The notes under the pieces are model-generated. The model saw only the letters and a program-made list of their open reading frames with translations. It ran no database searches and had not been told where the DNA came from. Source: Halorussus salinus (GTDB lineage: Archaea > Halobacteriota > Halobacteria > Halobacteriales > Haladaptataceae). Taken from it: DNA of 64,000 nucleotides. The stretch is from contig NZ_ML974128.1 of NCBI RefSeq assembly GCF_004765815.2, forward strand, positions 377,077-441,076, in the 5' to 3' direction. Made by a program: the position numbers and the translations under genes. Below are positions 4,790 through 24,488 of the stretch, one piece after another; the stretch's first letter is position 1, and the number at the start of each line of letters is the position of its first letter.

Positions 4790-6223
4790 ATGCCCCTCCG
4801 ACGCCGCGAAACCCTCGCGCTCTCGGGTGCCCTCCTCGCCGGACTCGCCGGATGCACCGGGAGCGAGGACCCGCAGACGACCGGCACCGCGACCGAGACG
4901 ACCCGCGACACGGCCACTCCCGACGACCCGGCGACCGAGACGACGCCCGAGGAGTCCCCCGGTTTCGACGACCTCGACGCGCCCCCGTTCCCCGAAATCG
5001 ACCCCGCGACCGACCCCGAAATTGCCGAGGACCTGCTGGCCGACCAGATTCGGGGCAACGTCGCGTTCGCCATCGACTTGCTCGCAACCCTGCGCGACCA
5101 GCAGGACGCGCCCAACCTCTTTTTCTCGCCCTACAGCGTCTCGGTCGCGCTGGCGATGACCTACGCCGGGGCGCGGGGCGAGACGGCCGCCGAGATGGCC
5201 GACGCGCTCCACTTCCGCCTCGACCCCGAGGAGTTACATCCGGCGTTCTCCTCACTCGCGGCCGAGTTCGAGCGACGCAACGAGGAGGGCGAGGAGGCGA
5301 GCGTCCGGACCGTCTCGCGCGACGACGGCGAGGACCCCGGTCCCGCCTTCGAGTTCACCACTGCCAACAGCGTGTGGGGTCAAGAGGAGTTCCCCTTCCG
5401 CGAGGAGTTTCTGGACCTGCTGGACGCCTACTACGGCGCTGGCCTCCGACTGGCGGACTTTCGAGGGTCGCCCGAGGAGGCCCGCGAGCGAATCAACGCG
5501 TGGGTCGCCGACAACACGGAGAATCGCATCGAAGACCTCCTCCCTCGCGGGTCCATCGACCAAGCGACTCGCCTCGTGCTGACGAACGCGGTCTACTTCT
5601 CGGCGCGCTGGGAGATTCCGTTCTCGGAGGAGGCGACCGACGCCCGCGAGTTCACCGCGCTCGACGGGACGACCGCGAAGGTGCCGACGATGCACAACGA
5701 ACTGAAGACCCAGTACGCCGAAATCGAGGGGCACCAACTGGTCGAACTCCCCTACGCGAACGGCGAGACGAGCATGGTGGTCGTCCTGCCCGCCGCGGGC
5801 GAGTTCGAGACGTTCGAGGAGTCGCTTTCGGTGGACCGACTCGCCACGATGCTCGACCGGACCGGTCGGGCGCAGGTGTCACTCTCGCTCCCGAAGTTCG
5901 AGGTCGAGTCGTCGTTCAGTCTCGTGAAGACGATGCAGAACCTCGGCATGAGACGGGCGTTCACGTCGTCGGCAGACCTGACCGGCATGAGCGAGTCGGA
6001 AGGCGAGGACCTGTTCGTCAGCGAGATTCGCCACGACAGCTTCGTCTCGGTGGACGAGCGCGGCACCGAGGCCGCGGCCGCGACCGCGGTCGTCGTCGCC
6101 GAGAGCGCCCTCCCCGAGCGAGTCGAGATGACCGTGGACCGTCCCTTCCTGTTCTACATCCGGGACCGGCCGACGGAGACGCCGCTGTTCGTCGGGCGCG
6201 TGACCGACCTCTCCGGAGAATAG
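4790..6223 (+). CDS. Tat-exported lipoprotein serpin (serine protease inhibitor)
   Basis: A 477-residue serpin. It starts with a twin-arginine signal (MPLRRRETLAL) and a lipobox LAGC near residue 22, so it should be exported folded and lipid-anchored on the cell surface. A threonine/proline/glutamate-rich linker follows to about residue 75. The serpin fold then shows NLFFSPYSVSVALAMTYAGA, TNAVYFSARWEIPF and, near the end, the hinge DERGTEAAAATAVVVAESAL with DRPFLFYIRD after it. The alanine/threonine-rich hinge is what inhibitory serpins need for loop insertion. Counting from P17 Glu puts P1 at Ser or the adjacent residues, so the target protease class is uncertain. Serpins are uncommon in archaea. 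Confidence 0.93.
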   Translation: MPLRRRETLALSGALLAGLAGCTGSEDPQTTGTATETTRDTATPDDPATETTPEESPGFDDLDAPPFPEIDPATDPEIAEDLLADQIRGNVAFAIDLLATLRDQQDAPNLFFSPYSVSVALAMTYAGARGETAAEMADALHFRLDPEELHPAFSSLAAEFERRNEEGEEASVRTVSRDDGEDPGPAFEFTTANSVWGQEEFPFREEFLDLLDAYYGAGLRLADFRGSPEEARERINAWVADNTENRIEDLLPRGSIDQATRLVLTNAVYFSARWEIPFSEEATDAREFTALDGTTAKVPTMHNELKTQYAEIEGHQLVELPYANGETSMVVVLPAAGEFETFEESLSVDRLATMLDRTGRAQVSLSLPKFEVESSFSLVKTMQNLGMRRAFTSSADLTGMSESEGEDLFVSEIRHDSFVSVDERGTEAAAATAVVVAESALPERVEMTVDRPFLFYIRDRPTETPLFVGRVTDLSGE

Positions 6224-6295
6224 CTGACCGCACCGCCCGCCCCTGACCCGGCGCATCGGCGTTCGTCCGAGCAAGCAAATCCCTAGTTCCCTTCG

Positions 6296-6338
6296 CGAAG
6301 CGAACCCGATGCGCCCGCCGTCTGCGAAGTTCGCTTCG
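6296..6338. terminator. inverted repeat between convergent genes
   Basis: CGAAGCGAAC at 6296-6305 is the perfect reverse complement of GTTCGCTTCG at 6329-6338, leaving a 23-base loop. It sits between the 3' ends of the serpin gene and the glutamate dehydrogenase gene, where a bidirectional terminator would be expected. There is no T-run, so the role is only inferred from position. Confidence 0.35.
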
Positions 6339-6361
6339 TCGGTGGTCTCGGACCGCGTTCG

Positions 6362-7651
6362 CTACGGCCAGAGACCTCTGCTCGATTTCGCCTCGCCGAC
6401 GCGTTCGAGCGCGACGACGTAGGCGGCGTCACGCCAACTCAGGTCGCGGGATTCGACCTCGCGGCGAACGTCGTCCCACGCCGAGAGCATGTGGGATTCG
6501 AGTTCGTCGTTGACGCGTTCGAGCGACCACTGACGCCGGTTGATGTCCTGCAACCACTCGAAGTACGAGACGGTGACCCCGCCCGCGTTCGCCAGAATGT
6601 CGGGAATCACGGCGACGCCGCGTTCGTTCAGAATCTCGTCGGCGGCCGAGGTGGTCGGGCCGTTCGCGCCCTCGACCACGATGTCGGCCTGCACGTCGCC
6701 CGCGTTGTCCGCCGTGAGGACGTTCCCGATGGCCGCCGGAATCACCACGTCCACGTCGAGTTCGAGGACCTCCTCGTTCGTGAGCGTGTTGGGCGCGTCG
6801 TACTGCATCACGGCCTCGGGTTGCTCCTCGTGGGAGGGCACCGCGTGGGTGTCGAGACCGGTCGTGTCGTAGGCCGCGCCGTTCACGTCGCTGACCGCGA
6901 CGACGTTCGCGCCCCAGTCGTCCAGCAGGCGGGCCGCGTTCGCGCCGACCGACCCGAAGCCTTGGACCGCCACGGTGGCCTCGTCTACGGTCTTGTCGTA
7001 GTACCGGAGCGCCTCGCGGGCGATGATTGCGACCGAGCGACCGGGGGCCTCCTCGCGGCCCTCGCTCCCGCCGATGACCGGCGGTTTCCCGGTGACGACG
7101 CCGGGCGTCGTCTCGCCCTCCTGCATCGAGTAGGCGTCCATGAACCACGCCATCGTCTGGGCGTCGGTGCCCATGTCGGGCGCGGGGATGTCCTGTTTCG
7201 GCCCGATGGTGTCCCGAATCTCCTCGGCGAACCGGCGGGTCAGTCGCTCCTTCTCGTCGGCGCTGAGGTCCTTCGGGTTCACCACGATACCGCCCTTCCC
7301 GCCGCCGAACGGCAGGTCCATCACGGCGCACTTCCACGTCATCCACATCGAGAGACCGACGCACTCCTCGGCGGTCACGTCGGGGTGGAAGCGCAGGCCG
7401 CCCTTGTACGGGCCGCGCACGTCGTCGTGCTGGGCGCGATAGCCCGTGTACACTTCGACACTCCCGTCGTCGCGCTTCAGCGGCACGCCGACTTCGACCA
7501 CCCGCGTCGGGTGCTTGAGGCGTTCGATGACGCCCTCTTCTACGTCCACGTGCGTCGCGGCCGCCGAGAGCTGTCGCAGGGCGGTTTCGAGCGCCGATTC
7601 GGTCTCCGAGTAGTCGTCTCCGTCGGGGTCGTCGAGTGTGTTCGTCGCCAT
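6362..7651 (-). CDS. gdhB: Glu/Leu/Phe/Val dehydrogenase (glutamate dehydrogenase)
   Basis: A 429-residue hexameric-type glutamate dehydrogenase, interconverting glutamate with 2-oxoglutarate and ammonia in the cytoplasm. It shows the substrate-binding YKGGLRFHP and [16 protein letters not shown] (catalytic lysine region), then PAPDMGTD and the Rossmann motif [12 protein letters not shown] near residue 215. Length is normal for the family. The start is fixed by [13 protein letters not shown]. Only four bases separate its start from the stop of the small zinc-ribbon gene upstream on the same strand, suggesting an operon. Cofactor preference (NAD or NADP) cannot be read confidently. Confidence 0.95.
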
Positions 7652-7655
7652 GACT

Positions 7656-7805
7656 CTACTCGTAGGGCATCCCTCGGTTGCGCATCGAACTCCCGCAGTC
7701 GCCGCATCCGCCGGGGTGACTGCTCGCGCTCACCGTCTCGCCGCAGTTCAGGCACTCGTACTCGTAATCTTCGTCCGCGTCGTAGTCTGGGTCGCGGGTT
7801 CTCAT
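7656..7805 (-). CDS. rubrerythrin-like zinc-ribbon protein
   Basis: A 49-residue acidic protein, [18 protein letters not shown], with two CxxC knuckles (CLNCG and CGDCG) and the C-terminal [11 protein letters not shown] found in the haloarchaeal rubrerythrin-like domain family. It probably binds zinc or iron. I chose the internal ATG at 7805 because family members begin MRTxDPD. It lies four bases upstream of gdhB on the same strand. Confidence 0.82.
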
Positions 7806-7886
7806 TCGGTAAATATTGCTAAGCGGCTCCCCGAACATGGGCTGTCCCGTTGAATAGTAACCCGTGACTCCCGACCGCGTGGTTTA

Positions 7887-10874
7887 CTATTCCACCTCGG
7901 AGGGTCGCGGCCGGTTCTCGAACAGCGAGGAGAACAGTTTTCGCTCGATTCGGCGCACGTGGTCGTAGAACGCGGTGTGAGAGATGTCCAACATCTCGGC
8001 GACCTCCCGGCCGGTCACGTCGCGCTTCGAGTCGAAGAACCCCGCGTGGTAGGCCATCTGGGCGACCTCTAACTGTCGCTCGGTGAGGTCGTCTACGAGT
8101 CGCCCGGTCCGTCCTCGCGTGTCCAGCGCCCGCGTCCGCTCGCGCTGTGCGACCGGTTCGGCGGCGTCGTAGGTGTTCGAGACCACCTCGTCTATCGAGC
8201 GCGTCGTCACCGAGTCGGGCACGTCCACGGTCAGCGAGATACCCTCCGGAGTCGCCTCGAAGTGCCGGAGGAGTGCCCCGTGGTCGGCCAGCGCGGCGGT
8301 CACGAACTCCCCGCGCAGTCGGAGGCCGACCAGTCCGCCCTCGTCGGTCTCCCGAATCGACTCCGCGTCCGCGACGCCGACGGACTCGTCGGCCGCCGCG
8401 ACCACGCCGTCGAGGGGCGCGCCCGCGACGGTGGCGAACACGAGCGTCGTCCCGTCGTCGCCCGTCACGTCGCCCTCGACCGCTATCGTCGCGCCGGTCT
8501 CGCTGGCGAGGCGCGCGAGGAGGGCGCTCGGGTCGGCGACCCGGTATTCGAGTTCGACCACCGTGTCGCTCTGGAGGGCTTCCTTGCGCTGGACCGCGTT
8601 GATGGCCGACGCCACGGTGTCGCCGAGTTCCCGGAGGACCGACCGGACCATCTCGTCGAAGGCGTCGGGATGGTCGGCGTAGACGGTCAGCGTCCCGAAC
8701 AGCACGTCGTCGTAGACCAGCGGAATCGACAGCACCGACTGGAAGTCCCGCGAGACCGCCTCCTTGCCCCACCGGCCGGTCCGGAGGTGTTCGGCGACGT
8801 TCGAGACGAGCGTCGCCTCCCGACGCTCGGCGGTCCGGACGCTCGGTTCGACGGTCTCGGGGTCGCCGTCGAACTCGAAGGGCACGCCGTCGAGGTACCC
8901 CTGCTCGGCCCCGGCCCACGTCCGGGGTCGGAGCGTCCGGTCCAGCGCGGTCGTCCCGCCGATCCACGCGAACCGGAAGCGGTCGTCGGCGGTCAGTCGC
9001 TCGCAGACGGCGGCCTCTATCTGTTCGCGGGACTCCGCGCCGACGAGGGCTTGGTCTATCTCGCGGATGAACTCGTTGACCCGGTTGAGTTGCGAGAGCC
9101 GCTCGTTCTGGCGCTGGAGTCGCCGGTCGCGCTCCCGGAGTTCGCCGTCGCGCTCCACCCGGTCGAACGCCGCCTCGGTCGTCGCGGCCAGCAGTTCGGC
9201 GACCTCCTCGGCCACCTCGTCGAAGGTCTCGTCGGCGGCGGCCGCCACGAAGACCCCGTGGTCGCCCAGCGGCACGGCGACGTAATCGCCGAGCGTCGAG
9301 AACGGCGACCGAGGAGCGCGGTCGGTCCGGGTCGCCGAGTCGGTTCGGTCGATGCGGTCGGTCCGGCCTGCGGTGTCGAGTCGGTTCCCGCGACCCGTCC
9401 GCCCTTCGCGGTCGCACGTCCGGGTCTCGTCCTCCACGAAGGCGCGGGTGACGGGGCTGTCGCGGTCGAGGCGCAACTCCGGGAGCGTCCCCACGAGGTC
9501 GGCGAACTTCTCGGAGACCGCGGTCGGATAGAGGACGTTCTCGTCGCGGTCGAATCGGTAGAGCGCCGCGGCGGCGGCGGGCAGTATCGAGGCGGCGTCC
9601 GACACCACGCGGTCGGCGATTTCGGATTTCGTCTCGGCGTACAGCAGGCCCCGACTGGTTCGGTGGAGTTGGGTGAGCGCCCGCTCGCGCTGTTTGCGCT
9701 TCGTGATGTCGCGGCAACTGTAGAGGGTCGTCCCGCCCTGAATCGAGACCTGCCGGACGTTGACCAGCAGGGTGTGTTCCCGGCCCTCCTCGTCGGTCGC
9801 GGTACACTCGATGTTGGTCAGCACGCCCTCGGCGTCGAGTCGGTCGGGGTCGAAGAGGTCCTCGCCCAGTAGCTCGTCGATGGTCCCGAGGTCGTGTATC
9901 TCCTCGGCACTGTAGCCGAAGATGAAGTGGACGTTCGGGCAGACGTAGGTGAACTCGCCGTCGTCGTCGGTGACCAACACGGTGTCGGTCATGTTGTTCA
10001 GCGTGACGCGGTGCAACTCCTCGGACTCGCGCAGTTCCTCCTCCAGTCGGACGCGCTCGGCGACCTCCCGGCCAGCGACGACGAGGCGGTCCACGTCGCC
10101 GCTCTCGTCCGCGACGGGTCGAATCGTGAACTCGAATCTGGCTCCGTCGTTCCCTCCAGCCCTCTCGCCGCTCGCTCCGCCAACGCCCTCGCCGTCTCTA
10201 CTACTGCCCGGCAGTCCGGCCTCGAACTCGGCGTACTCCCCGCTCCGGGCGCGGTGAACCGCTCGCTGGAGGTCCCGCGACGAGTCGTCGGTCCACGGGA
10301 GTCCCCAGAACCGCTTGCCGAGGAGGGTCTCCTCGTCTCGCCCGAGGGCGTCGAGCGCGCCCCGATTCAGTCGGACGACGGTCCCGTCGGCGTCGAGGAC
10401 CGCGCCGAACTGGCCCGGCGTGGCGAAAAACGACTCGAACTGGTCGGCGCGCTCGCGCCGTCGCCGCCGGTCGGCTCCTCGTTCTATCGCCTCTCGGCAC
10501 CGCCGCCGGACCGTCTCGCCGTCGGCGTCCGCTGGCACGTAGTCGGTGACGCCCGCCGCGATGGCGTCGCTGGCGAGCGATTCGCTCCCGTCGGCCGGAG
10601 CCAACACGACGGGCAAGTCGGTGCTGTGCGACCCGAGCGCGTCCAACAGGTCCAGACCGGTCGCGCCGTCGAGTCGTCCGGCGCTCACCACGCAATCGAC
10701 CGCGGCGCGTCGGTCGGTCGCGCTCGACACGGCCTCCTCGACCGTCGAGACGGTCCGCACGGCGAACTCCTCGTCCGCGGCGAACGCCGGACGCAACCGT
10801 TCGCGCCACTCCTCCGGTCCCGCGAGGAGGACGCGGCGTCGGTCGGCGGATTGCGATGCCCGAATCGTATCCAT
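7887..10874 (-). CDS. multi-domain PAS/GAF sensor with bacterioopsin-activator HTH
   Basis: A 995-residue cytoplasmic regulator. Residues 13-130 resemble a response-regulator receiver, but the phospho-acceptor position reads CVVSAGRLDG, with Ala65 where aspartate is expected. Two PAS-type sensor domains follow (about 145-275 and 285-400), then two GAF-like domains (about 410-575 and 595-755). The C-terminal third is a bacterioopsin-activator-type domain ending in an HTH_10 helix-turn-helix (LTERQLEVAQMAYHAGFFDSKRD, then EMLDISHTAFYDHVRRIERK). It probably senses redox, light or a small ligand and controls transcription. The start at 10874 leaves a 92-base divergent promoter shared with the FMN reductase gene. 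Targets are unknown. Confidence 0.9.
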   Translation of the reverse strand: MDTIRASQSADRRRVLLAGPEEWRERLRPAFAADEEFAVRTVSTVEEAVSSATDRRAAVDCVVSAGRLDGATGLDLLDALGSHSTDLPVVLAPADGSESLASDAIAAGVTDYVPADADGETVRRRCREAIERGADRRRRRERADQFESFFATPGQFGAVLDADGTVVRLNRGALDALGRDEETLLGKRFWGLPWTDDSSRDLQRAVHRARSGEYAEFEAGLPGSSRDGEGVGGASGERAGGNDGARFEFTIRPVADESGDVDRLVVAGREVAERVRLEEELRESEELHRVTLNNMTDTVLVTDDDGEFTYVCPNVHFIFGYSAEEIHDLGTIDELLGEDLFDPDRLDAEGVLTNIECTATDEEGREHTLLVNVRQVSIQGGTTLYSCRDITKRKQRERALTQLHRTSRGLLYAETKSEIADRVVSDAASILPAAAAALYRFDRDENVLYPTAVSEKFADLVGTLPELRLDRDSPVTRAFVEDETRTCDREGRTGRGNRLDTAGRTDRIDRTDSATRTDRAPRSPFSTLGDYVAVPLGDHGVFVAAAADETFDEVAEEVAELLAATTEAAFDRVERDGELRERDRRLQRQNERLSQLNRVNEFIREIDQALVGAESREQIEAAVCERLTADDRFRFAWIGGTTALDRTLRPRTWAGAEQGYLDGVPFEFDGDPETVEPSVRTAERREATLVSNVAEHLRTGRWGKEAVSRDFQSVLSIPLVYDDVLFGTLTVYADHPDAFDEMVRSVLRELGDTVASAINAVQRKEALQSDTVVELEYRVADPSALLARLASETGATIAVEGDVTGDDGTTLVFATVAGAPLDGVVAAADESVGVADAESIRETDEGGLVGLRLRGEFVTAALADHGALLRHFEATPEGISLTVDVPDSVTTRSIDEVVSNTYDAAEPVAQRERTRALDTRGRTGRLVDDLTERQLEVAQMAYHAGFFDSKRDVTGREVAEMLDISHTAFYDHVRRIERKLFSSLFENRPRPSEVE

Positions 10875-21234: not shown

Positions 21235-21240
21235 TTTTAT
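21235..21240 (+). promoter_or_regulatory. TATA-like box for the peptide gene
   Basis: TTTTAT at 21235-21240 lies 32 bases before the peptide ATG at 21272, predicting a start of transcription around 21264 and a leader of about 8 bases. The surrounding 21160-21270 is the most AT-rich non-coding stretch near elp3, unlike its flanks. Confidence 0.5.
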
Positions 21241-21271
21241 TACGGTGTTCCTACCATAGAGATATGTAGTC

Positions 21272-21376
21272 ATGGAAGACGATAACAAGCACCTCATCGG
21301 AGACCTCGAGGACCGAGAAGTGACCGAGCGAGAAAGCACCATCGTCGTCAGCTGTCACGTCATCGACGTGCAGTAG
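21272..21376 (+). CDS. 34-residue candidate RiPP precursor peptide
   Basis: A 35-codon frame. The N-terminal half is a charged leader-like segment, MEDDNKHLIGDLEDREVTER. The C-terminal half is a mostly uncharged core-like segment, STIVVSCHVIDVQ, with Thr, two Ser, one Cys, one His and one Asp, suitable for ring-forming chemistry. It has its own TATA-like box upstream. A perfect hairpin followed by TTTT starts 14 bases after its stop, as in strongly expressed precursor genes. Downstream on the same strand are a RimK-like ATP-grasp ligase and a PqqD-like/M50 peptidase, both typical of RiPP maturation. It has no named homologue that I recognise. The precursor role is inferred from architecture and neighbours. 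Confidence 0.65.
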   Translation: MEDDNKHLIGDLEDREVTERESTIVVSCHVIDVQ

Positions 21377-21389
21377 ACGACGGCGAAAC

Positions 21390-21414
21390 GTCGATTCCGA
21401 ACGAATCGACTTTT
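21390..21414 (+). terminator. hairpin plus T-run after the peptide gene
   Basis: GTCGATTC at 21390-21397 and GAATCGAC at 21403-21410 form a perfect 8-base-pair stem with a 5-base loop, followed at once by TTTT. A second hairpin, CGACGAAG (21433-21440) with CTTCGTCG (21447-21454), follows. Together they would end or weaken transcription between the peptide gene and the enzyme genes. Confidence 0.6.
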
Positions 21415-21525
21415 CCAGTGACCGCGACAAGACGACGAAGGAGACGCTTCGTCGGTCGTGACCGAGTTGCCGGTACTCTATTTAAGATACTCGCACTCGC
21501 ACCCCGAAAAGCCTCGAAACCACAC

Positions 21526-21533
21526 ATTTAATA
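21526..21533 (+). promoter_or_regulatory. TATA-like box for the ATP-grasp gene
   Basis: ATTTAATA at 21526-21533 lies 25 bases before the ATG at 21558, so transcription should start at or next to the start codon and give a leaderless message. A second element, TATTTAAGAT, is at about 21480-21489. The enzyme genes thus appear to have a promoter separate from that of the peptide. Confidence 0.55.
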
Positions 21534-21557
21534 CGCACTAATACGCGATAGTTTAGT

Positions 21558-22493
21558 ATGACTGTCCTATTAATAGGAAGAGTATTCGGGCACGAATTCG
21601 AGTTGCTGCGCGAGGAGATAGAACGGCGGGGAAGCGAAGTCGTCGTCGTGGACGTGGACGATTGGCCGAGCGGCAAAGCCATCACCCACGACGTGAGCGA
21701 CGAGTCAATCCGCCTCGGGTCGGAGTCACTTTCCATCGACGAGGTCGAAGGCGCGTTCGTCAAGCCGCTGACCATCTTCAACGCCGCCGTCGAGGACCGA
21801 CTCGACGGCGTCGTGAGCGACGACGAGAACCCCTACGCCGCGCTGACGCAACTCCGGGAGTACCGCGGCATCTTCAAGAGCATCCTGCGGTCGCTCGAAG
21901 CCCACGGCGCGACCGTCGCCCCGAACGTCGAGACGTTCGTCTGGGACGAGATAACGCCCCACGCCTACGACCGGTTCCGCGCGGCCGGTATCGACGTGCC
22001 CGAGACGCTGGCGACGGTCGATTCGGACGCCGCCAAGGAGTTTCTCGCCGACCACGGCAAGGTCGTCTACAAACCCATCACCGAGTTCGGCGGCGCGTAC
22101 GTCCTGACCGAAGACGACTCGGAGGAGGTCGAAGACCTCACGACGCCCGTGATGTTTCAGGAGTTCGTTCCCGGCGACGACGTTCGGGCGTACGTGGTGG
22201 ACGGCGAGTACGTCGGGCAGTTCCGGTACGTGTACGACGGCGGTTCGTTCTCGTACAAGTACCCCGAGGGCGAGGTCGGTGCCGAACCGGTCGAGATACC
22301 CGACGCGGCGCGCGAGGACGTGCTGGCGGCCGCCGACGTGTTGCCGACGACCTACTCCGCGGTGGACCTGCGACTGGACGAAGACGGCTCGCACTCGATA
22401 ATGGAGGTCAACTCCGGCGGCCGGTTCATGCTCGCCGACTCCGAGGGGGTCACGAACGTCGCGGAGGCGCTCGCCGACCACCTCGTCGAGTAG
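21558..22493 (+). CDS. RimK-like ATP-grasp ligase (candidate peptide-modifying enzyme)
   Basis: A 311-residue ATP-grasp protein. The N-terminal 110 residues form a pre-ATP-grasp Rossmann-like domain (MTVLLIGRVFGHEFELLREE). The nucleotide-binding lysine is in VVYKPITEFGGAYV (Lys172), the hinge in MFQEFVPGDDVRAYVVDG (Glu202, Arg210), and the metal ligands in AVDLRLDEDG (Asp270) and IMEVNSGG (Glu283, Asn285). The catalytic set looks complete. RimK-type enzymes add amino acids to proteins or, as MvdC/MvdD relatives, close ester or amide rings in graspetides. The neighbouring 34-residue peptide and PqqD-like/M50 gene favour the peptide-modifying role. Glutamate ligation to a protein is the main alternative. 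Confidence 0.85.
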   Translation: MTVLLIGRVFGHEFELLREEIERRGSEVVVVDVDDWPSGKAITHDVSDESIRLGSESLSIDEVEGAFVKPLTIFNAAVEDRLDGVVSDDENPYAALTQLREYRGIFKSILRSLEAHGATVAPNVETFVWDEITPHAYDRFRAAGIDVPETLATVDSDAAKEFLADHGKVVYKPITEFGGAYVLTEDDSEEVEDLTTPVMFQEFVPGDDVRAYVVDGEYVGQFRYVYDGGSFSYKYPEGEVGAEPVEIPDAAREDVLAAADVLPTTYSAVDLRLDEDGSHSIMEVNSGGRFMLADSEGVTNVAEALADHLVE

Positions 22494-22499
22494 ACAGCG

Positions 22500-23471
22500 A
22501 TGAACCGGAACGTGGTCGTCGAGGACGCCGAGTACGGCTTCGCGTGGTGTCACGTCGAGGAGCGATACTTCCTCGAAACGCCGGACGGCGGCTTTCGGGA
22601 GGTCAACGAGGCGGTCGTTCGACTGCTTGAGAAAGTCGCTCGCGGCGAGATACCCCTCTCGGCGCTCCGGACGCAGGCCGAGGGCGGAGCGGCGGTGATC
22701 GACGAGTCGCACACGTCCGCCGAGGAGGCCCTGTCGCTGGTCGAGGGCTACGTCGAGGAGGGCGTCCTCCGCGAAGACGCCCCGGTCGTGGAAATCCTCC
22801 CGCCGGACGACATCGCGCTCTGGCCCTACGTCGCCGGGTTCCTCGCCCTCGTCTCGGTCTTCGGAGCGGCGGTCGCGTCCGTCGTCTCGAACCTCTCGGT
22901 CGCGGTGGTCCGGGAGGTGTCGGTCATCCACGTGGCGGCGACGATGGTCCTCTCGGCCGCGTACCTCGCCATCCACGAGTACGGCCACTACGCCGTCAGC
23001 GACCGCCACTTCGACCCGTCCGTGCGGTTCGACTTCGTGAACGGCGTCGTGCCCGCGGTCGTCACGGACACGACCGGGTCGTGGATGCTCCCGCGCAACC
23101 GGCGGATACTCGTCAACCTCGCCGGTCCGCTGGTCGAACTGGCGGCCGGTCTCCCGTTCGTCGCGCTCTACTACCTCTTCCCCCGGAGTCTCCTCGTCCA
23201 GATTCTGGTCGTCAGCGTCTTCGCACACGTCGTGATGTCGCTGAACCCGCTCATCCACGGCGACGGGTTCTGGATTCTGTGCGACTACTTCGGGCTGATG
23301 AACGTTCGTCGTAAGGGCATCGAGGACCTGACCGACCTCCGGCCGTCGTGGAGCGCGGCGTACGTGGTCGTCTCCTACGGCTTCGGCGCTCTCGTCGCCG
23401 TCTACATGGTCGTCATGCTGGCCTCGTTCGTCGGTCTCGTGGATGTCTCGCTTCCCGTCGGACTCGCGTGA
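22500..23471 (+). CDS. PqqD-like domain fused to M50 membrane metallopeptidase
   Basis: A 323-residue protein, 6 bases after the ATP-grasp stop. Residues 1-95 resemble PqqD-type peptide-recognition elements (RYFLETPDGGFREVNEAVVR, then a helix pair). From about residue 105 it is a multi-pass membrane protein with the zinc motif HEYGH (159-163) and the third-ligand region NPLIHGDGFWILCDYFG (Asp255), as in site-2-protease-like M50 peptidases. The PqqD-like part would bind the leader of the peptide and the M50 part would cut it at or in the membrane, perhaps also aiding export. No ABC transporter is nearby, which fits export through this protein or an unlinked transporter. Confidence 0.8.
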   Translation: MNRNVVVEDAEYGFAWCHVEERYFLETPDGGFREVNEAVVRLLEKVARGEIPLSALRTQAEGGAAVIDESHTSAEEALSLVEGYVEEGVLREDAPVVEILPPDDIALWPYVAGFLALVSVFGAAVASVVSNLSVAVVREVSVIHVAATMVLSAAYLAIHEYGHYAVSDRHFDPSVRFDFVNGVVPAVVTDTTGSWMLPRNRRILVNLAGPLVELAAGLPFVALYYLFPRSLLVQILVVSVFAHVVMSLNPLIHGDGFWILCDYFGLMNVRRKGIEDLTDLRPSWSAAYVVVSYGFGALVAVYMVVMLASFVGLVDVSLPVGLA

Positions 23472-23699: not shown

Positions 23700-24488
23700 T
23701 CACTCGCCGTCGAGTCGCGCGAGTTCGGATTGGAGGTCCGACTGGATGTAGGCCGCGACCTCGCGCACGCGTTCGGGCCGGAACGTCCAGAATCCCGTGT
23801 AGCGTCCCGGTTCGACCTCGCGCGCGAGGAGCGCGCCGCTGGCCTCGTCGTCGTCGGCCTCGTAGACGACGAACCACAGGTCGGTCACGTGGTCGCCCTC
23901 GTCGTCGCCGAACGCCGTTATCGAGTCGATCTCGGGCGGCCGCCAGTCCGGGATGCCGTACAGGTTCACGTCCACGCCGCTGTTGGCGATGCGGCGGTAG
24001 GTGTCCCACGTCTCGCGCTCGTCGCGGAGTCGCGAGAGCCGCTGACAGCCGGTGTGGAGCGTTCCGGCCCCCTCGTGGCCCGCCTGTTCCTCGACGACGC
24101 GCGAAATTTCGAGAAGGGAAATCTTGTCCTCGCACTCGACGCTGTAGACGTTCTCGTCGAGTGCGGTCAGAAACGTCTGGACCGCGCCGACGACTCGCGG
24201 GTCGTCGGCGTATCGCGGGGGGAACGACTCGGCGTCCAGCGCGTCGATGAGGTAGTCGTGGAGGGTCCCGACGCCGATGGCGGCCAGACACCGCTCGCCG
24301 TCCGAGAGGACCAGAAACGCCTCCGGAAGTGCGTCCACTTCCATCGCGGTCGTCACCTCGAACGCGTAGCGTTCGAAGTAGTTCAGTAGCTCTGCGACGC
24401 GTTCGTCGGTCTCCTCGGCGTTCACCACCGCCAGATGTCTATCGACCGACCTGATATCTTCGATAAAAACACCGAGGTTGTTTGACAT
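23700..24488 (-). CDS. DICT sensory domain protein
   Basis: A 262-residue soluble protein matching the haloarchaeal DICT domain layout: an N-terminal SNNLGVFIEDIRSVDRHLAVVN, a central LTALDENVYSVECEDKISLLEISRVVEEQA, and a C-terminal sensor-like region with DLWFVVYEADDDEASGALLARE and WTFRPERVREVAAYI. DICT domains occur with signalling modules and are thought to sense ligands. Here the protein stands alone with no output domain, so it may act through a partner. It is convergent with the RiPP-like locus and separated from it by the MBL remnant. Confidence 0.85.
   Translation of the reverse strand: MSNNLGVFIEDIRSVDRHLAVVNAEETDERVAELLNYFERYAFEVTTAMEVDALPEAFLVLSDGERCLAAIGVGTLHDYLIDALDAESFPPRYADDPRVVGAVQTFLTALDENVYSVECEDKISLLEISRVVEEQAGHEGAGTLHTGCQRLSRLRDERETWDTYRRIANSGVDVNLYGIPDWRPPEIDSITAFGDDEGDHVTDLWFVVYEADDDEASGALLAREVEPGRYTGFWTFRPERVREVAAYIQSDLQSELARLDGE

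Follow-up and report, generated by a model that had tools for sequence, protein, structure and literature searches.

Published graspetides are described as rings in which the donor residue precedes the acceptor (PMC7823629), and all graspetides characterised up to 2022 are protease inhibitors (PMC8939145). The same phylogenomic survey stated that the enzyme cleaving graspetides was unknown, and for graspimiditides the native proteases were undetermined (PMC12291112). Membrane proteases of the M50 family are known from other RiPP pathways: the daptide protein MpaP is an RRE-dependent intramembrane peptidase that removes the leader (PMC10036551), and RiPP precursors are also the substrates of the M50 proteases EpeP, TglG and TmoG (PMC10885120). 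Predicted graspetides of Thermoprotea (group 36) are on record in PMC13097080, so that the occurrence of the class in archaea is in itself no novelty. Here, we describe a three-gene locus in a 64-kb stretch of Halorussus salinus DNA (the window) that probably represents a minimal graspetide-type RiPP cluster, in which an ATP-grasp ligase would ring a very short peptide and an RRE-M50 membrane protease would free it. A sequence-only reading of the window had described a 34-codon gene followed by an ATP-grasp gene and, six bases further on, an M50 gene, and all coordinates of this arrangement proved correct. The features of the locus are listed in the table.

Features of the three-gene locus; positions are those of the window.
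Feature	Position	Strand	Basis
TATA-like box of peptide gene, TTTTATTA	21236..21243	+	by eye, about 33 nt 5' of the ATG
Precursor peptide gene, 34 aa, MEDDNKHLIGDLEDREVTERES / TIVVSCHVIDVQ	21272..21376	+	motif in 19/19 loci; variable tail
Leader, residues 1-22, HLIGDL and TERES (E-x-R-x-[NSQ])	21272..21337	+	alignment; boundary inferred from [NSQ]|[TAP] conservation
Core, residues 23-34; predicted donor Ser27 (21350-21352), predicted acceptor Asp32 (21365-21367)	21338..21373	+	+5 spacing test
Terminator-like hairpin and T4	21390..21414	+	folding z -1.9
TATA-like box of ATP-grasp/M50 operon, TTTAATA	21527..21533	+	by eye
PsnB-like ATP-grasp macrocyclase, 311 aa; Lys172, Arg210, Asp270, Glu283, Asn285	21558..22493	+	profile and model match
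RRE-M50 membrane metallopeptidase, 323 aa; start 6 bases after ATP-grasp stop	22500..23471	+	profiles, model
N-terminal RRE/PqqD-like winged-helix domain, residues 9-93	22524..22778	+	AF2 pLDDT 76-92 per block
M50/site-2-protease domain, residues 141-313	22920..23438	+	model matches; HEYGH 22974-22988, NPLIHGDG from 23244

The precursor ORF, which starts with ATG and was confirmed against the window sequence, encodes the peptide MEDDNKHLIGDLEDREVTERESTIVVSCHVIDVQ. The description of a charged leader-like half and an uncharged tail was borne out for the leader only, as Asp32 lies in the tail. The TATA-like box assigned to the gene was recognized by eye only, while the hairpin 3' of the gene consists of a perfect 8-bp stem with a 5-nt loop (-15 kcal/mol, z -1.9); the hairpin and the following T4 are present and form a candidate terminator with modest support. 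When six of the precursors were scanned with Pfam and NCBIfam no meaningful family was obtained, and searches of all three proteins of the locus against PHROGs and PADLOC gave zero matches, leaving a phage or defence reading without support here. A reading of the ORF as a signal peptide or as part of a toxin-antitoxin pair was dropped as well, since the peptide is acidic and not hydrophobic and its partner is a ligase. The gene for a DICT-domain protein (PF10069, 5.9e-7) adjoins the locus at 23700-24488 on the reverse strand and is not conserved at other loci.

A search of 146 related genomes with the M50 protein, and of 391 Halobacteria with its profile, yielded 19 full-length members, among them the window protein and a further copy from its own genome (G000:C2:24186-25079). 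Relatives of the same genus among the matches were H. litoreus, H. amylolyticus, H. halobius and H. ruber. A gene for a PsnB-like ligase was found beside the M50 gene in all 19 loci, and in 16 of them the two genes overlap or abut. A regular expression for the leader, written after the peptides had been seen, was then applied to the six frames of all loci. For every one of the 19 it recovered exactly one short peptide beside the operon, and five other matches lay far off in other frames. All 19 precursor genes start with ATG, and 20-256 bp separate them from the adjacent ligase or M50 gene. Their leaders have in common the motif H-phi-phi-x-x-L ... E-x-R-x-[N/S/Q]-[T/A/P], whereas the tails are variable. 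The peptide gene is positioned upstream on the same strand (2 loci), upstream and divergent (6), downstream and convergent (8) or between the M50 and ligase genes (3). Since the content of the locus is constant across four layouts and either strand, retention of the peptide appears to be functional and not a consequence of mere synteny or shared DNA descent. Apart from the precursor, gene conservation across the loci is limited to the ligase and the M50 protein, and no conserved transporter was seen among the neighbours.

These data also bear on the idea that the short ORF is noise and that the ligase-protease pair acts on another substrate. The ORF is very short, and between the window and its nearest relative (L013, H. 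litoreus) there are many substitutions with little third-position excess, as noise would predict; yet in this comparison the encoded residue differs at 5 of 22 codons in the leader and at 9 of 12 in the tail, so that a conserved leader precedes a variable tail, and a spacing rule holds in the tails (see below). In the 64-kb window the leader expression matches once, in this ORF, and it matches once beside each of the 19 ligase-M50 pairs, which argues on sequence grounds that the 34-codon ORF is a real gene and no chance ORF; we find the noise explanation hardly credible. The conserved leaders with variable tails that the sequence-only reading had predicted near the pair in haloarchaeal genomes were thus found, and its objections to itself, namely pairs lacking a short ORF or relatives with a broken frame, were checked and did not hold, all 19 pairs being accompanied by a peptide.

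In a phylum-wide search with the M50 profile, only distant M50 proteins were obtained outside Halobacteria, and no ligase lay beside the two that were inspected. Distant ligases in G326, G419 and G002 were excluded, and so was a truncated pair from G035. Apparent decaying copies are represented by an isolated C-terminal M50 fragment (L085, G416:C64) and a truncated ligase/M50 remnant (L091, G035:C15). Three loci of Halorussus relatives (L019, L020, L021) carry two divergent ATP-grasp genes each; in the distal one Gln replaces the ATP-binding Lys172, while Asp270, Glu283 and Asn285 are kept. In a non-halobacterial archaeon (L087, G539:C10:14800-27200) a distant M50 is encoded near a 73-aa NHLP/Frankia_peptide-type precursor ending in KTCVARYGV (PF14407 4.6e-9, below cut-off; positions about 5220-8449, reverse complement), which is possibly a separate archaeal RiPP cluster.

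The ligase is assigned by Pfam to the RimK-like ATP-grasp proteins (2e-10), and the metal- and ATP-binding residues that had been called intact (Lys172, Asp270, Glu283, Asn285) are indeed present. When the alignment profile was compared with solved structures, the best match was PsnB, the macrocyclase of plesiocin (7drm-7drp, E 2.4e-68), followed by PruB (9bou, 2e-23), CdnC (6e-23), MdnB/MdnC (3e-22 to 1e-21) and RimK (6e-15); the window ligase alone matched PsnB with E 1.4e-22. The AlphaFold2 model (pLDDT 85) likewise has PsnB as its best structural match (Z 27.4 over 298 residues), with RimK at Z 24-25. TIGR04187 of NCBIfam is matched by all ligase members, the window protein reaching it only below the curated cut-off. 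As the ligase is PsnB-like by both profile and model, graspetide is the right class, in agreement with the earlier assignment. Arg210, which aligns with PsnB Arg213, is found in 25 of 25 haloarchaeal copies; Song et al. 2021 are said to have shown that Arg213 recognises the ring-forming acid. A further arginine, Arg272 (codon 22371-22373), is invariant in the ligase clade with short cores, whereas the TTxxxxE clade has Val or Ile at this position and PsnB has Lys. This difference may point to a change in how the carboxylate is handled. PsnB groups with the TTxxxxE clade in the ligase tree, a placement that involves a long branch and midpoint rooting.

For analysis of the cores, tails were defined by cutting after E-x-R-x-[NSQ], an inferred leader/core boundary that yields lengths of 9-29 residues. 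Asp or Glu is present in 15 of 19 tails, and spacing was tested on 13 of these, L078 and L084 being left out as near-duplicates. Each of the 13 tails has a Ser or Thr exactly five residues before an Asp or Glu, compared with a mean of 4.4 of 13 in shuffled tails and with none of 5000 shuffles reaching this value; after thinning of near-identical tails the spacing was retained in 10/10 (shuffle mean 3.0/10, 0 of 5000). Because the test was designed after inspection of the sequences, its p-value is not confirmatory, but the effect is uniform all the same. In the short tails of the Halorussus type the fifth residue is the predicted donor and the tenth the predicted acceptor, corresponding to Ser27 and Asp32 of the window peptide, for which a Ser27-Asp32 macrolactone is predicted. 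This order agrees with the graspetide pattern of a Ser, Thr or Lys donor ahead of an Asp or Glu acceptor. Tails from other genera contain TTLAVGEE, TTMAMGEE, TT[LM]ATGEC or TTYFCLE. TTxxxxEE, which Lee et al. reportedly gave as the core motif of plesiocin, occurs in L082, L083 and L084, and TTxxxxE, a reduced form of it, in L022, L023, L078, L079 and L080; the window core does not contain the TTxxxxEE motif of group 2 (plesiocin-type) graspetides. The C-termini of the precursors vary, without an invariant C-terminal Thr. The motif LFIEDLG could not be traced in the pertinent literature and was given no weight as evidence.

Four M50-linked loci (L014, L016, L017, L018) have no Asp or Glu after the presumed boundary, while their ligases keep the catalytic residues. 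L017 (G000:C2:18000-31000, locus positions 5228-7330) is the second complete copy in the genome of the window, with the precursor MTDHFIEELDETDSAELEERDNPALTGVMGNVYFGA and an acid-free tail. The M50-linked L014 and the M50-less L089 have the acid-free end TPITWFGG in common, whereas the preceding region differs. Such tails are beyond textbook graspetide cyclisation: either the C-terminus or a leader Glu is used, or the ring is formed elsewhere, or there are substrates besides these precursors. As a doubtful proposal, the PsnB-like ligase could activate the C-terminal carboxylate, or that of a leader Glu, and link it to a Ser, Thr or Cys of the core. If true, the acid-free loci would encode a graspetide synthetase with a chemistry undescribed for the class, the product being for example an autoinducer-like C-terminal (thio)lactone released by the RRE-M50 protease. 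The acid-free cores are also what one would expect if the ATP-grasp enzyme modified the peptide in another way, for example by adding an amino acid or amine to the C-terminus as RimK does or by forming a lactone with the C-terminal carboxylate, with the core acid being incidental. Structural closeness to RimK and the invariant Arg272 of the short-core clade, absent from PsnB and the TTxxxxE clade, would fit such an activity; however, similarity to PsnB by far exceeds that to RimK (2e-68 versus 6e-15), and neither the +5 rule nor the lack of conservation at the C-termini would be accounted for, and we consider this explanation improbable.

The second enzyme of the pair had been described as a PqqD-like domain fused to an M50 peptidase. 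Motifs and fold confirmed the M50 part, whereas Pfam did not detect PqqD in the protein, even when the N-terminal domain was searched alone, so that the PqqD-like label rests on the RRE-like fold in the AlphaFold2 model (pLDDT 86 overall). Structural matches of this domain, a winged helix with an antiparallel sheet and three helices, are modest and include lasso B1 (6jx3, Z 5.5), TbiB1 (5v1u, Z 5.3), CteB (5why, Z 5.2) and the RRE of PbtF (8t19, Z 4.2). The M50 domain matches RseP (9j82, Z 10.8), SpoIVFB (8vjl, Z 9.6) and the M. jannaschii S2P (3b4r, Z 8.1), and H159, E160, H163, N249, P250, D255 and G256 are invariant in the M50 alignment. The best curated profile was daptide_HExxH of NCBIfam (2.7e-12, 46 bits versus a cut-off of 300), and NF058609 was matched with 1e-4. 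By analogy with the daptide peptidase MpaP, the M50 protein with its RRE-like N-terminus is likely a leader peptidase, and it may be the protease, not the ligase, that is guided by the RRE.

Three further loci (L088, L089, L090) contain the ligase and a short peptide but no neighbouring M50 gene. H-phi-phi-x-x-L is kept in all of them, while E-x-R-x-[NSQ] is absent in two of the three, which fits a motif belonging to the peptidase step. In these three loci the sequences suggest that H-phi-phi-x-x-L would serve the ligase and E-x-R-x-[NSQ] the RRE-M50 step. L088 and L090 both adjoin apparent A-type ATP synthase A/B genes. Since one of the genomes with an M50-less locus (G004) lacks M50 proteins of this family entirely, one may ask if the ATP-grasp enzyme modifies the peptide while the RRE-M50 protein degrades it for self-protection or cuts a regulator. 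We regard this as unlikely, given that the two enzyme genes are contiguous or overlapping at most loci, that RiPP enzymes use the RRE-like fold to bind precursors, and that the RRE-M50 proteins of daptides are leader peptidases and EpeP processes epipeptides.

From the three genes with their conserved association, the leader/core pattern, the +5 rule, the homology of the ligase to PsnB and the RRE and S2P folds, we propose the following route, in which the linkage itself, docking partners, cleavage site, export and biological role are putative. The ribosome would make the 34-residue precursor, the acidic leader of which would dock on the PsnB-like ATP-grasp enzyme through H-phi-phi-x-x-L. The ligase would then phosphorylate the side chain of Asp32, and attack by Ser27 would close a macrolactone of six residues, one water being lost; Cys28, through a thioester, or Thr23, through an ester, could supply the linkage instead. 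Subsequently, the RRE would hold the leader while the intramembrane zinc site of the M50 domain would cut near E-x-R-x-[NSQ]|[TAP], and a ring-bearing peptide of about 12 residues would be freed at the membrane. Its role is perhaps protease inhibition, antagonism or signalling.

In the literature searched, which comprised main texts while supplementary tables may list members, no paper pairing an RRE-M50 protein with a graspetide ligase was found. Neither the haloarchaeal family nor its tiny precursors nor the pairing of ligase and RRE-M50 appear to have been described in these main texts, in line with the earlier remark that no described system has exactly these parts, although each part is known separately (graspetide synthetases; daptide RRE-M50). 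The cluster would extend graspetides to haloarchaea, where the RiPP products in the literature searched have so far been lanthipeptides, and would provide a simple +5 rule for ring formation in very small cores, and its natural acid-free cores would offer a test of what PsnB-like enzymes can activate. Because a candidate leader peptidase with a precursor-binding domain lies beside the ligase in 19 of 19 loci, the question of graspetide cleavage becomes testable with three small genes.

Among described systems, the archaeal lanthipeptides of Halorussus and others (PMC12144867) are likewise haloarchaeal RiPPs and from the same genus, but they rely on LanM chemistry, and the main text of that study does not mention ATP-grasp or graspetide. 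The epipeptide proteases EpeP/YydH/LiaK and the pearlin proteases TglG/TmoG resemble the present protein as M50 proteases acting on RiPP precursors; they are combined with other modifying enzymes, and TglG and TmoG cut at the C-terminus. Daptide MpaP (DapP) is closer in that an RRE is fused to an M50 intramembrane peptidase and daptide_HExxH is the best profile, whereas here no conserved decarboxylase, aminotransferase or methyltransferase is found nearby, the invariant C-terminal Thr is missing and the score is far under the cut-off. The microviridin and fuscimiditide ligases (MdnB/MdnC, ThfB, TIGR04187) have the same graspetide macrocyclase fold and family, but are farther than PsnB, and neither a PFFARFL leader nor an isoaspartyl methyltransferase is present here. 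Plesiocin (PsnA2/PsnB, group 2 graspetides) is most similar, as PsnB is the nearest solved relative of the ligase and sister loci have TTxxxxEE-type cores. In contrast to the NHLM-type transporter reported for group 2 (PMC13097080), an RRE-M50 gene is adjacent here, and the archaeal precursor has one short core instead of the four repeats of plesiocin, with a single S-x4-D pair in the core of the window.
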